Origin: Aurantiacibacter marinus | GTDB taxonomy: Bacteria; Pseudomonadota; Alphaproteobacteria; Sphingomonadales; Sphingomonadaceae | Direction: 5' to 3' | DNA: 64,000 nt | Assembly (NCBI RefSeq): GCF_001021555.1 | Contig: NZ_LDCP01000001.1 | Span: 372,001-436,000 of the forward strand | Part shown: in pieces, positions 52,315 to 64,000 of the stretch | Numbering within the stretch: position 1 is the first letter of the stretch | How the letters are laid out: the number at the start of each line of letters is the position of its first letter | Notes under the pieces: generated by a model | Database searches by the model: none | What the model was told of the DNA's origin: nothing | Seen by the model: the letters and a program-made list of their open reading frames with translations, nothing else | Position numbers and translations under genes: made by a program

Positions 52315-53301
52315 TCAGATACCGCCGCCTGTAAGGCGCTGACAAATAAGGTCTAATTGATCGAGAGTGCGGAAACGCACAGTGACCGCACCTGACCGCG
52401 GATCTTCGTCTGTAGCGATTTTCACGGGCAGGCCGAGAAACTCCTCCAGATGATTCTCTACTGCTGCAATATCGGCATCCTGGGCAGGGTCACGTGGAGG
52501 ACGTGCGGTTCGGCGTGCAGGTGTTTCGCCACCATTGCGACTCTTGCGGGCCAGTTTTTCGGTTTCACGCACCGACAGATTCTTGGCAAGGATCTGCTCG
52601 GCCAGTTGCTCGGCATCATCCAGCCCGATGAGCGCGCGCCCATGGCCCATGCTAAGGCGGCCCGCCTCCAGATGATCGAGCACACGGGTCGGAAGCGACA
52701 GGATACGCTGCAGGTTCGCGACATGGCTTCGTGACTTTTCAACCAGCGTTGCAATCTCAGCCTGGGTCATATCCTCGAACTCGGACAGACGTTGATAGGC
52801 CCGCGCTTCTTCAACTGGGCTGAGATCTTCGCGCTGGATATTCTCGATGAGCGCCAGCGCCATAACATCACGATCTTCAAGATCACGAATTACCGCTGGA
52901 ATTTCATGCAATTGCGCCTTCTGCGAGGCGCGCCAGCGGCGCTCTCCCGCCACCAACTGATACTTTCCGCGCGCCTGAGGGCGGACGATAACGGGCTGGA
53001 TCACACCCCTGCTCGCAATCGAAGCCGCCAGTTCCGCAAGCGCTTCTTCGTCGAAATGTTGGCGCGGCTGATCGGGATGCGGTTCGATGTCTGAAATGGC
53101 TAGCATCGCAAGACCATCGGTTCGGACAGTATCTTGCCCTTTGGCGCCACCAGAGCTTGAAAGAGGGCGCCGGGCGACCAGCGGTTCTTCACGCCGTGCC
53201 TCACCCATCAAAGCTCCCAGACCCTTGCCCAATTTACGTCGATTCGACGCAATCGGCGGCGTTGGCGCGCTTTCCGGCTTGGCGGAGCTCTTCTCGCTCA
53301 T
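52315..53301 (-). CDS. parB: Chromosome partitioning protein ParB
   Basis: A 328-residue CTP-dependent DNA clamp that loads at parS sites. It has an N-terminal tail containing the ParA-interacting region, the ParB/Srx CTPase domain (HPDQPRQHFDEEALAELA near 77-94 and box GERRWRAS near 118-125), a helix-turn-helix domain and a C-terminal dimerisation domain. Its start overlaps the parA stop by four bases. parS-like sites lie 0.8-3.3 kb upstream. It is the last gene of the mnmG-rsmG-parA-parB run. Confidence 0.96.
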   Translation of the reverse strand: MSEKSSAKPESAPTPPIASNRRKLGKGLGALMGEARREEPLVARRPLSSSGGAKGQDTVRTDGLAMLAISDIEPHPDQPRQHFDEEALAELAASIASRGVIQPVIVRPQARGKYQLVAGERRWRASQKAQLHEIPAVIRDLEDRDVMALALIENIQREDLSPVEEARAYQRLSEFEDMTQAEIATLVEKSRSHVANLQRILSLPTRVLDHLEAGRLSMGHGRALIGLDDAEQLAEQILAKNLSVRETEKLARKSRNGGETPARRTARPPRDPAQDADIAAVENHLEEFLGLPVKIATDEDPRSGAVTVRFRTLDQLDLICQRLTGGGI

Positions 53302-54074
53302 GCCGCCACCTGCTGTGCCGGCAGCCTGCCGATCAGCTCTCTTGCGAGCGCCATATAGGCTTTGCTGCCAGTGCAGGAGTGATCGTAAACCAGCGCGGGA
53401 AGACCATGGCTGGGTGCTTCGGATAGGCGCACATTGCGCGGAATCACGGCATCAAACACAAGGTCTCCCAAACATTCACGCACATCATCGGCTACCTGGT
53501 CCGTCAAGCGGTTACGGCGATCGAACATGGTCAGGGCAACCCCGACAATACCCAGATCGGGGTTGAAGCGCTGTTGCACCTGCTCAACTGTCTGCAAAAG
53601 CTGGCTGAGGCCCTCCAACGCAAAAAATTCGCATTGCAGCGGCACAAGCAAGGTGTCAGCGGCGCAAAGCGCATTGAGCGTCAGCAAGCCCAGAGAAGGC
53701 GGACAATCGATAAAGCAGACATCATGCCCCTTGTGATCGGCGAAGGCATCGCGCAACCGGTGCGAGCGATTTTCAACGCCGACCAATTCCACCTCGGCCC
53801 CGCTCAAATCCACCGTGGCAGGCAAAAGATCTAGCCCAGGGATTGTGGAGCGCATAATGCAATGATCAAGCGCAACCTGATCAACCAGCACATCGTAGCT
53901 TGAAAAATCGCGATTCGCTGCGGCAACGCCTATGCCGGTGGAAGCATTACCCTGCGGGTCGAGATCCACCAACAATGTACGCCAACCGCTCGCTGCCATG
54001 GCCGTTGCGGTGTTGATGGCAGTGGTGGTTTTGCCCACCCCGCCCTTCTGATTGGCTATCGCGATAACGATCAT
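53298..54074 (-). CDS. parA: Chromosome partitioning ATPase ParA
   Basis: A 258-residue deviant-Walker ATPase with KGGVGKTT at 10-17 and a VDLDPQGNAST segment near 39-49. It should form a nucleoid gradient along which ParB-parS complexes move. The start ATG at 54074 overlaps the rsmG stop (ATGA). The longer in-frame ORF extends into rsmG and is rejected. Confidence 0.96.
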   Translation of the reverse strand: MIVIAIANQKGGVGKTTTAINTATAMAASGWRTLLVDLDPQGNASTGIGVAAANRDFSSYDVLVDQVALDHCIMRSTIPGLDLLPATVDLSGAEVELVGVENRSHRLRDAFADHKGHDVCFIDCPPSLGLLTLNALCAADTLLVPLQCEFFALEGLSQLLQTVEQVQQRFNPDLGIVGVALTMFDRRNRLTDQVADDVRECLGDLVFDAVIPRNVRLSEAPSHGLPALVYDHSCTGSKAYMALARELIGRLPAQQVAA

Positions 54075-54697
54075 TTCAGTGCTGGCCTCCCTGTGCCGAC
54101 AAGTATACCCGCCTCGGAATCCGTAATAGATTGTTCCACGTGGAACATCGCGCGAATCCGTTCGGGCTGCTCTGCCAATTCTTGCGCCCCCGAACGCCCT
54201 TTCGGCAACAGCCAAACGGTAGAGCGTGTGGAAAACCGCGCGGATAACTGCAGCAATTTAGCGAGCGGTGCGAAAGCACGCGCTGTGATAACAGCTGTTT
54301 CCATCGTTTCCACAAGTTCGAGCCGACCGCCGTGAACCATGCAATTGTTCAAATTTAATTCGGCCTTGATGTGACTAAGCCATTCCACTCGCTTGCGCCG
54401 TGATTCGACGAGATCAATGTGTACGTCAGGCCGTGCGATGGCCAACACCAGCCCGGGAAGCCCTGCCCCTGAACCCAGATCAAGCCAAGGCGATGTTTCA
54501 CGTGGAACATGGTCAAGAAGCTGAAGGCTGTCAGCAAGGTGCCGCTGCCAGACCGATTGCAAGCTTCCCGAAGAAACGAGATTTTGCCGCTCATTCTCTT
54601 CTGCGAGGAGGGTGATAAAGCGATCCAGTCGCTCCATCGCAGGTGGATCACAGCGTTCGGCGCAAAAGGCTCTGGCTTGTTCTTCGGTTTCAATCAT
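54071..54697 (-). CDS. rsmG: 16S rRNA (guanine527-N7)-methyltransferase RsmG
   Basis: A 208-residue methyltransferase acting on G527 of 16S rRNA. SAM-binding motif [11 protein letters not shown] lies near 71-81 and a [11 protein letters not shown] segment near 97-107. It overlaps mnmG and parA by four bases on each side. Two parS-like sites are inside its coding region (54132-54147 and 54494-54509). Confidence 0.95.
54132..54147. promoter_or_regulatory. parS site (perfect palindrome)
   Basis: The 16-base palindrome TGTTCCACGTGGAACA matches the alphaproteobacterial parS consensus, with both halves symmetric. It lies inside rsmG, 60 bases from the parA start. ParB is expected to bind here and spread. 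Confidence 0.9.
54494..54509. promoter_or_regulatory. parS site
   Basis: TGTTTCACGTGGAACA, one base from perfect symmetry and matching the consensus core GTTTCACGTGGAAC. It lies within rsmG, about 360 bases from the first site. Confidence 0.88.
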
Positions 54698-56605: not shown

Positions 56606-56621
56606 TGTTCCACGTGAAACA
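56606..56621. promoter_or_regulatory. parS site between mnmE and mnmG
   Basis: TGTTCCACGTGAAACA, one base from symmetry, lies in the 76-base gap between the mnmE stop and the mnmG start. The position might also affect mnmG expression when ParB is bound. Confidence 0.88.
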
Positions 56622-60974: not shown

Positions 60975-61418
60975 TCAGAAGGGCTTTACGACCACCAGTA
61001 TAACGATGATTGCCACGGCAATTCCAGGCACTTCATTGAACAGACGCAGCTGCTTGCCTGTCATTGGCCGTTCTCCGCGTGCCAGTTTCTTGGCGTAAAC
61101 GGAAAGATAGCCGTGATAGCCTGAAAGGATCAGTACAATCAGCAGTTTGAGATGGAACCAGCCGCCTAGCGGAACCATTCCCGTGCCTAACAGCGCCAGC
61201 CCGAGTGCCCACACGACAATAATCGATGGCAGCAGGATGATCTTGAGCAGCTTCTTTTCGCGATCGACGAATTTTTCTGCTTCTTCCGAGCCTTCGGGAG
61301 CTTCCTGATGATAAACAAACAGGCGCGGCAGCATGAACAACCCCGCCATCCAGAAGATCACGAAGATGATATGGCCAGCTTTGAGCCAGAAATAGATCAT
61401 TTGGAGAAATTCCTGCAT
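60975..61418 (-). CDS. hemJ: Protoporphyrinogen IX oxidase HemJ
   Basis: A 147-residue membrane protein with four predicted helices that oxidises protoporphyrinogen IX, probably using a heme cofactor and quinone. The first helix holds KAGHIIFVIFWMAGLFMLPR with the conserved His near 16, and a Lys in HLKLLIVL is conserved. It is also annotated as CopD-like/UPF0093. It lies between hemE and rho, a frequent alphaproteobacterial order. Confidence 0.92.
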   Translation of the reverse strand: MQEFLQMIYFWLKAGHIIFVIFWMAGLFMLPRLFVYHQEAPEGSEEAEKFVDREKKLLKIILLPSIIVVWALGLALLGTGMVPLGGWFHLKLLIVLILSGYHGYLSVYAKKLARGERPMTGKQLRLFNEVPGIAVAIIVILVVVKPF

Positions 61419-61470
61419 CGCCGGTGTTTAGGGCAGCAGCATGACCGCGTCACCCCCGAAGAATTGCGCA

Positions 61471-62487
<1,017 letters not shown>

Positions 62488-62788
62488 TAAGAGAGAGTCC
62501 AATCCAATATAATAATTATATTTATAGAAATGATGTTGTTTATGGGCCTGTGGATTACGGGGACACCGGTGGATCACCCGAGTTATGCCGCTCAAACCTG
62601 ATGATGCAAGGGCTTCGACTCGTTGGTTGCCCGCGTCAAGCGATCCTTCTCCACGCTACCCACAGCTTCGCAAAATAAACATGCATCGGGGTATTTCCCT
62701 GCTCACGAATCAGCTGTCAGCGGGGACAGAATTTCATCCCTGACTTGTCCGCCTTTCTCTCCCGTGGTTTATACGCCTATCTATCCAC
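62488..62788. other. oriC: Probable chromosomal replication origin (oriC)
   Basis: This 301-base gap between divergent hemE and ppsR has no gene. It contains an AT-rich stretch (62506-62534) suitable for unwinding. DnaA-box-like sequences are at 62549-62557 (TGTGGATTA, 8 of 9), 62781-62789 (CTATCCACA, 8 of 9, touching the ppsR ATG), 62568-62576 and 62656-62664 (7 of 9 each). There are also three GANTC sites (62495, 62617, 62707), targets of CcrM methylation. The hemE/RP001-homologue gap is the origin in Caulobacter and Rickettsia. hemE and ppsR promoters must also be here. Confidence 0.8.
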
Positions 62789-63634
62789 ATGGCGCGACTT
62801 CACCTTCATCTGCTGTCGGACTCGACCGGCGAAACTCTCGAAATGATCGCCAAGGCGGCGCTCGCACAGTTCGAGGATAGCGATGTCGTGCGCCATTTTT
62901 GGCCCATGGTCCGTTCCCGCCAGCATCTTGATCGCATCCTGAACGAGTTCAAGGCCAATCCAGGCCTTGTCCTCTATACACTGGTGAATGAAGATATTCG
63001 CGAGCGGCTGGAAGAACGGTGCCGTTCGCTCGGGCTCAAGCATGTTGATGCGCTTGATGCCATAACGGAAGCGTTGGAAGAGCGGCTGGGGCAGGAAGCC
63101 AAGGGTCGTCCAGGAAGACAGCACGCGATGGACGAGGCATATTTTGCGCGCGTCGATGCCATCCAGTTCACCATTGCCCATGACGACGGCATAGGATGGG
63201 ACAATTGGGAGGAGGCAGATATCGTACTGGCAGGCGTGTCTCGTACGTCCAAAACGCCGACCAGCATCTATCTCGCCAATCGCGGTTATAAGGTCGCCAA
63301 TATCCCGCTGGTGGTGGAAAGCCCGCCGCCAGATCACCTGTTCCGCCTTCAGCACCCCATGGTTGTCGGCCTGACCACTGCCCCAGCCCGGCTCGTGCAG
63401 ATCCGCCGCAACAGATTGCTGTCACTCAACGAAAAAACAGAGACGGACTATGTCGATGGAGAGCGGGTCAAGACTGAAGTCGGCTTTGCGCGGCGCATGT
63501 TTGCCGACAATGGCTGGCCAGTGATCGACGTAACACGCCGCTCAATCGAAGAAACGGCTGCCGCGGTGATCCGGCTGCACCAGGAACGCGAAGGCCGCGA
63601 TCGCTTGCCGCAAACCGGACCAAAACCAATATGA
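62789..63634 (+). CDS. ppsR: Pyruvate, phosphate dikinase regulatory protein (DUF299)
   Basis: A 281-residue bifunctional kinase/pyrophosphorylase. The N-terminal LHLHLLSDSTGETLE and the P-loop-like GVSRTSKTPTSIYLA (near 149-163) are family hallmarks. It uses ADP to phosphorylate, and Pi to dephosphorylate, a Thr of pyruvate phosphate dikinase or PEP synthetase. The gene (RP001 in Rickettsia) marks the right side of the alphaproteobacterial origin. It is followed 10 bases later by maf. Confidence 0.94.
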   Translation: MARLHLHLLSDSTGETLEMIAKAALAQFEDSDVVRHFWPMVRSRQHLDRILNEFKANPGLVLYTLVNEDIRERLEERCRSLGLKHVDALDAITEALEERLGQEAKGRPGRQHAMDEAYFARVDAIQFTIAHDDGIGWDNWEEADIVLAGVSRTSKTPTSIYLANRGYKVANIPLVVESPPPDHLFRLQHPMVVGLTTAPARLVQIRRNRLLSLNEKTETDYVDGERVKTEVGFARRMFADNGWPVIDVTRRSIEETAAAVIRLHQEREGRDRLPQTGPKPI

Positions 63635-63644
63635 CCGGCCCGCT

Positions 63645-64000
63645 ATGATCGTTTTGGCGTCCAAGTCCTCATCGCGCCAGGCCATGCTGCGCGATGCGGG
63701 CGTTGCGTTCGAGGCGCGGCCCGCAAATCTCGATGAACGGGCGATCGAAGCGGCGATGCAAAGTGCGCCTCCGGCAGAGATTGCGCTAGCGCTTGCAGAG
63801 GCCAAGGCTCTGGCAGTTGCGGAGCCGGTGAAGCCCGTGCTCGGAAGCGATTCATTGGTGGTGGTCGATGGCCGCCGCTTTGATAAACCATCCAGCCACG
63901 CCGACGCGGTGGCACATTTGCGCTTTTTCTCGGGTAAGATCATGGAACTGCATTCGGCAGCTGCGCTTGCAAGGAATGGGGCGGTGGTCTGGAGCCACAC
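63645..64000 (+). CDS. Maf family nucleotide pyrophosphatase (partial)
   Basis: The first 118 codons of a Maf/YhdE-type protein; the rest is beyond the window. It starts IVLASKSSSRQAMLRDAGV. The catalytic region reads LGSDSLVVVDGRRFDKP, followed by LRFFSGKIMELHSAAAL. Family members hydrolyse dTTP, UTP or modified nucleotides and act as house-cleaning enzymes. The order ppsR-maf is conserved next to the origin in alphaproteobacteria, often followed by aroE, coaE and dnaQ. Confidence 0.93.
   Translation, partial: MIVLASKSSSRQAMLRDAGVAFEARPANLDERAIEAAMQSAPPAEIALALAEAKALAVAEPVKPVLGSDSLVVVDGRRFDKPSSHADAVAHLRFFSGKIMELHSAAALARNGAVVWSH

Follow-up and report, generated by a model that had tools for sequence, protein, structure and literature searches.

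The gap between the divergent genes hemE and ppsR is very probably the chromosomal oriC of this Erythrobacteraceae-type genome. Judged by its sequence, it is a member of the known hemE-linked alphaproteobacterial origins and ordinary in kind. The sequence-only reading of this DNA had placed a probable oriC here, and the GC-skew switch, duplex instability, DnaA-box cluster, conservation, parABS and a dif-like site agree on that location. The sequence through which the origin would open appears to follow the textbook pattern less strictly and is treated separately below.

The hemE/ppsR gap as the putative chromosomal origin

The window, i.e., the whole stretch of 64,000 nucleotides analysed, covers contig 1 positions 372001-436000 of a 2.84 Mb genome assembled in five contigs. 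For comparisons within the genome we used forty further stretches, which together with the window amount to 850,693 bases (approximately 30% of the genome). The gap (62488-62788, 301 bases) is bounded exactly by the start of hemE (61471-62487, minus strand, uroporphyrinogen decarboxylase) at 62487 and the start of ppsR (62789-63634, plus strand, kinase/pyrophosphorylase) at 62789. Both gene starts and the Pfam matches PF01208 (URO-D) and PF03618 (Kinase-PPPase) agree with the gap edges first proposed. ppsR is presumably the homologue of RP001, as the sequence-only reading had it, and the divergent hemE/ppsR gap characteristic of this type of origin is present. An Rfam search of 61000-64000 gave no match, and a repeat search of 62400-62850 found no repeats.

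GC skew on contig 1 was negative in all 7 sampled stretches of 20 to 64 kb left of the gap and positive in all 15 to its right, so that the minus-to-plus change expected at an origin is found here. A skew minimum far from the gap had been named beforehand as evidence against an origin at this position; in the sampled stretches, skew cumulated over 244 contiguous kb (C1:312001-556000) was lowest at C1:446144, which is only 11.5 kb from the gap, on its right side. The skew is weak, with absolute values mostly below 0.04 on contig 1, and this places the switch only to approximately 12 kb. Some 10 kb pieces had the wrong sign, for example, those at C1:352001 (+0.004), 436001 (-0.013), 840001, 960001, and 1210001. 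On contig 2, the skew went from positive (1 and 60 kb) through approximately zero (120 kb) to negative (200 kb), and it was +0.005 in the last stretch. Near this opposite switch lies a dif-like site, ATTTAACATAATATATATTATC (C2:204245; L115:4234, C2:204234), at the locus that ranks second in instability among the sampled 40-mers. The dif pattern occurred at 7 places with 2 mismatches, and the contig 2 site was picked for its E. coli dif-like flanks and its position. Were contig 4 to belong to the right arm and contig 3 to the left one, the two arms would measure approximately 1416 and 1413 kb, a balance that serves as a consistency check, the contigs being unordered.

parS sites 6 to 8 kb away, as expected of an origin-proximal centromere, had also been noted. 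The motif scan returned 3 parS-like sites on the plus strand (0.12 expected), at 54132-54147 (2 mismatches), 54494-54509 and 56606-56621 (1 mismatch each), 5.9 to 8.4 kb from the gap. parB (52315-53301; ParB_N, HTH_ParB, ParB_C) and parA (53298-54215; AAA_31/ParA-type) are nearby too, both on the minus strand.

We scored DnaA boxes against TTATCCACA and report their conservation as counts in 80 aligned Erythrobacteraceae-type gaps, the window included. Closest to hemE is an R1-type box, TAATCCACA (62549-62557, minus strand, 8 of 9 positions), whose TGTGGA was kept in 79 gaps. It is followed by the weak box-like sequence TGATCCACC (62568-62576, minus strand, 7 of 9), which is private, its core being present in 2 of the 80. 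Two adjoining weak boxes on the plus strand, TTCTCCACG (62647-62655, 7 of 9, TCCNC kept in 65/80) and CTACCCACA (62656-62664, 7 of 9, YYCMCA kept in 68/80), occupy the middle of the gap. The last box, CTATCCACA (62781-62789, plus strand, 8 of 9, TCCAC kept in 71/80), ends on the A of the ppsR ATG. The overlap with the ppsR start codon that had been described is therefore real and amounts to one base; this exact overlap was common to 25 of the 80 aligned gaps, and a TCCACA core near the ppsR end was present in 65. DnaA bound there would be able to damp ppsR transcription. Two boxes of 8 of 9 had been counted before, as here, but the accompanying count of two 7-of-9 boxes was too low, since the gap holds three.

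The cluster is thus present, with every box imperfect, and its density is unusual. Only 3 of 1000 dinucleotide shuffles of the gap reached two boxes with at most 1 mismatch, and 2 of 1000 reached five with at most 2 mismatches. Among 22,087 overlapping windows of 304 bases from the same genome, the first count was reached by 10 and the second by 6. Just 2 windows reached both counts, and they lie over the gap, the place of the strongest cluster sampled. A strict TTWTNCACA scan of the window gave 2 sites, neither in the gap and in a number not above chance. The description of the box set as weak, with no perfect consensus box, was borne out by the scan against TTATCCACA. This weakness is partly a trait of the clade, given that a perfect TTATCCACA is rare in Erythrobacteraceae-type gaps (8/80, vs. 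8/17 in other gaps of the same family and 22/47 outside the family).

The AT-rich unwinding-type stretch described earlier is also extreme by measure: the 40-mer at 62505-62544 was the least stable of 849,094 sampled (-38.5), the next locus being that of the dif-like site. We regard it as the putative DNA unwinding element. Inside it lies a hemE promoter-like site on the minus strand (TAAACA, spacer of 16, TATAAT; -35 at 62542-62537, -10 at 62520-62515) that matched 10 of 12 positions in the promoter scan, where 2 sites were found in the region and 0.5 were expected. Transcription of hemE and opening of the origin may thus share DNA. This promoter-like site also fits an explanation in which the gap is just a divergent hemE/ppsR promoter region with DnaA as a regulator and oriC is elsewhere in the skew minimum, e.g., at gidB/parA (54.1 kb), where four boxes of at most 2 mismatches, including one of at most 1, fall in the windows at 54074-54226. 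The skew minimum itself, 11.5 kb right of the gap, leaves room for this. We nevertheless consider it very unlikely, because the unstable tract is extreme among the sampled 40-mers, the box cluster peaks at the gap, the core of the R1-type box is kept almost throughout the aligned gaps, and promoter and origin roles can coexist in one gap. An origin beside dnaA, as in many bacteria, is extremely unlikely: the single dnaA copy (C1:826.9 kb) is 392 kb from the gap, the skew is positive, though small, on both of its sides (L112 +0.002, L011 +0.008) with no sign change, and a single box with 1 mismatch occurs in the 3.5 kb of the dnaA locus, whose least stable 40-mer is at -45.1, vs. -38.5 in the gap.

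Conserved elements in the gaps of relatives

Alignment with the gaps of other Erythrobacteraceae had been proposed as a check and was carried out here. Among the best 80 named relatives by PpsR, a divergent hemE/ppsR gap of 291 to 386 bases was found in 79 of the 79 loci that include hemE; the remaining named locus was cut short before this gene and was left out. The closest named relatives by PpsR, among the matches listed, were Erythrobacter sp. UBA3075 (93%) and Aurantiacibacter sediminis (89%). A second set of 79 loci from the order and the class, which includes our own locus and duplicates and in which 2 loci had no hemE in the piece taken, showed the genes divergent in 77 of the 77 loci with both, 290 to 1067 bases apart. 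The ppsR family is present in 109/118 genomes of the order and 69/115 of the class, of which a part was fetched. Besides the R1-type box and the core of the ppsR-side box, the elements kept most in the 80 aligned gaps were one GANTC site, a CTTGTC motif and, above all, a 15-mer.

The three GANTC sites noticed before are present, at 62495, 62617, and 62707. Their number is not unusual, being reached in 145 of 1000 shuffles. The CcrM-type site at 62617-62621 was kept in 80 of the 80 aligned gaps, and the other two in 36 and 17; the conserved site would offer a place for CcrM-type methylation to mark the replication state. In the gap alignment, many Erythrobacteraceae (relatives L028-L103) have a GANTC (GATTC, GAGTC) inside the unwinding zone by the DnaA box, and the hemE side of the 80 related gaps holds 133 GANTC sites vs. 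39.4 in letter shuffles. The window has none in its unwinding zone, its 62495 site being at the hemE end. CtrA-type TTAA-N7-TTAA sites, as in a Caulobacter-type, CtrA-controlled origin, were absent from the gap even with 1 mismatch; the window has 6 at 1 mismatch, and the gap region contains a single TTAA, at 62487.

The most conserved 15-mer of the gap, TCCCGTGGTTTATAC (62760-62774, plus strand), has a mean major-base frequency of 0.971 and one exact copy in the genome; its counterparts in relatives mostly end in GC. Besides the gap, our genome holds two inexact copies at 2 mismatches, vs. four for a reversed control, numbers on which we base no claim that genomes avoid the 15-mer outside the gap. 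Of 396 genomes of the order, 125 contain the 14-base core of this sequence, and 124 of these contain it once; 121 of the 125 belong to the window's family. Because the reversed pattern was found in as many as approximately 51 of the 396 genomes (counted by hand), a lone exact match proves little, and the evidence lies in its place beside ppsR. In 12 of the 12 family genomes with both the core and a ppsR position, the copy precedes the PF03618 match by approximately 90 bases or less. The 4 core-bearing genomes from other families have it on a contig other than that of ppsR, and most other members of the window's family have no such core. Upstream, a CTTGTC (62744-62749, plus strand) kept in 79/80 gaps is a putative -35 element of ppsR: with TTGTCC located 17 bases before TTTATR, the 15-mer region could be the ppsR promoter. 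The consensus promoter scan did not report a ppsR promoter around CTTGTC, and the invariance of the spacer in this region is not accounted for by a promoter. The 15-mer may be new in this lineage.

Triplet arrays beside the DnaA box in other Alphaproteobacteria

Next to the R1-type box, the order of elements resembles that of the basal unwinding system (BUS) of B. subtilis, in which an AT tract, DnaA-trio triplets, a GC cluster, and a DnaA box follow each other (excerpts of PMC8287927, PMC10721633, and PMC8235120). Read from the sequence, the plus strand of the window has the AT tract, the period-3 triplets ATG ATG TTG TTT ATG (62530-62544), the GC cluster GGGCC (62544-62548), in the same place in the order as GGCC in B. 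subtilis (PMC8235120, in part), and then the box. In the published trios, 3'-GAT-5', the middle A is conserved (PMC8287927 and PMC10721633, in part), whereas no in-register triplet of the window has an A in that place. We rephrased the published rule as three or more 3'-NAN-5' triplets no further than 16 bases from a box with at most 2 mismatches; neither the plus nor the minus strand of the gap has such a set.

To place these triplets, we used the second set of gaps, reduced from 77 to 73 by removing our own locus (L159), a duplicate (L210), and two near-duplicates (L175 and L163). The family here comprises Sphingomonadaceae including Erythrobacteraceae, as assigned from named relatives. In the 47 gaps outside the family, we counted TNG triplets (3'-GNT-5') in runs of three or more, up to approximately 220 bases from hemE: 28 gaps have such a run on the box-facing strand and 0 on the opposite one, vs. 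2.8 in shuffles. For runs of four or more, the figures were 14, 0, and 0.1. These counts, like all array counts given here, treat the genomes as independent, and the genomes are kin. A box with at most 3 mismatches lies at most 25 bases past the array in 24 of the 28 (36% in shuffles). The arrays keep the G and mostly the T, and the middle base is T in 41, A in 38, G in 26, and C in 1 of the 106 triplets. The NAN rule as reworded by us, with a box of at most 2 mismatches, picked out the plus strand in 14 and the other strand in 15 of these 47 gaps and, with no strand preference, does not stand out there; the same rule with T or G in the middle did so on the plus strand in 31 and 29 of the 47.

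Within the family, TNG runs of at least three were present in 5 of 26 gaps, vs. 1.4 expected. A strong array in the window's own clade was considered and rejected, as such runs occurred in 2 of the 80 Erythrobacteraceae-type gaps (3.8 expected). The looser WNG pattern gave runs of three in 29 of these 80 (22.9 expected) and of four in 11 (3.5 expected). The triplets at 62530-62544 are perhaps a remnant of the DnaA-trio-like array of other Alphaproteobacteria. Since TNG runs show no excess in the clade, this reading is weak here, and the window's array is at most a remnant.

The arrays of the class might instead belong to the coding sequence of an extended hemE or be simple repeats. The hemE frame does stay open to 62595 in the window, and one of the 28 runs (L231) is at the hemE start itself. 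The phase of the arrays relative to the hemE codons, however, is spread over the three frames (12, 8, and 8 of 28), an in-frame stop precedes hemE in 23 of the 28, and a stop occurs within 70 bases in 62 of the 80 Erythrobacteraceae-type gaps. The complete strand bias and the nearness of a box also speak against codons or repeats, and we consider this explanation unlikely.

The DnaA residues that would read the triplets

In B. subtilis DnaA, Asn187 contacts the middle A of the trio, Arg202 and Glu228 the G, and Asn196 the third base, and a T in place of the middle A lowers opening and initiation (excerpts of PMC10721633). The published trio search likewise assumes a fixed middle adenine (PMC8287927, in part). 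We placed the corresponding residues by alignment through 8btg. At the positions of Asn187, Arg202, Glu228, and Asn196, the DnaA of our genome has Val (Val261), Lys, Glu, and Asn, so that the residue that reads the middle A in the BUS is missing. Across 74 genomes, Lys202 and Glu228 were present in all 74 and Asn187 in 2. Position 187 is Tyr in 30, Phe in 13, His in 3, and Asn in 1 outside the family, and Val in 12, Phe in 6, Leu in 4, Met in 2, and Ile, Asn, and Tyr in 1 each within it. In a relaxed trio, the contacts to the G would persist, whereas the exchange of the A-reading Asn187, mostly for Tyr or Phe, would free the middle base.

Loss of Asn187 is not special to Alphaproteobacteria, an idea that we rejected because other classes of the phylum have Asn in only 4 of 26 proteins (Ala 8, Thr 8, Gln 5, Leu 1). 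What looks special in Alphaproteobacteria, by this alignment, is an aromatic residue at position 187. The idea that Asn196 maintains the T of the arrays was not borne out either, as this position is Lys in 43 of the 47 genomes outside the family. The 26 proteins of other classes came from the best-scoring loci of 70 genomes, and the DnaA comparison leaves aside L197 (a weak match) and L175.

Other features of these proteins were observed along the way. The family's DnaA (L003:970-2535, minus strand) is divergent, with an unusual Walker A motif, AATGQGKT. Its scores against PF00308 are 162 to 197 bits in 25 genomes and 219 and 234 in the remaining two of the 27, vs. 215 to 242 in 47 others; similarly low scores (169 to 195) were seen in a few further genomes of the class. 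Several short DnaA-family matches per genome (L324-L331, mostly G110 and G080) are perhaps mobile-element ATPases.

Discussion

That the origin is adjacent to hemE in Sphingomonadaceae is already in print: the excerpts of PMC4741004 report that Ori-Finder placed oriC close to hemE in Sphingopyxis granuli TFA, that a hemE-side oriC is predicted for most Sphingomonadaceae in DoriC, and that the hemE-linked oriC of Sphingopyxis has conserved boxes and a DUE. Our gap resembles the hemE-linked origins of Caulobacter (Cori), Rickettsia, and Sphingopyxis in its divergent position, AT tract, weak boxes, GANTC sites, and nearby parABS. It differs from those elsewhere in having neither CtrA-type TTAA-N7-TTAA sites nor a perfect box, and in carrying a clade-specific 15-mer on the ppsR side. 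The Caulobacter and Rickettsia features used in this comparison come in part from excerpts of the review PMC4468827. At the place of 62647-62664, many relatives have TCCCC-type sequences like the weak ATP-DnaA boxes (W-boxes, KMRTCCCSM) of Caulobacter (PMC8235120, in part), but the window has TCCACG and CCCACA there, not TCCC.

In the working model, DnaA would bind the R1-type box at 62549-62557 and then, cooperatively, the weak boxes further right. The filament would grow to the left, across GGGCC and along the G-bearing strand of the AT tract at 62505-62544, and open this tract, and the helicase would load there, with forks leaving both ways. We tentatively propose, at rather less than even confidence, that a relaxed DnaA-trio opens the hemE-linked alphaproteobacterial origins and has decayed further in Sphingomonadaceae, whose DnaA is divergent and where opening may lean on the extreme AT tract and on the 15-mer TCCCGTGGTTTATGC as an origin element of this lineage. 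We found no report of relaxed trios in Alphaproteobacteria, Caulobacter included, in the open-licence papers searched; the relaxed array outside the family may be new.

Altogether, these results show where replication of this genome probably starts and give the Erythrobacteraceae-type origin an anatomy drawn from 80 aligned gaps. They also turn the reach of the Bacillus DnaA-trio rule into a question open to direct test, in a class where the arrays show no fixed middle A and DnaA is without its reader.
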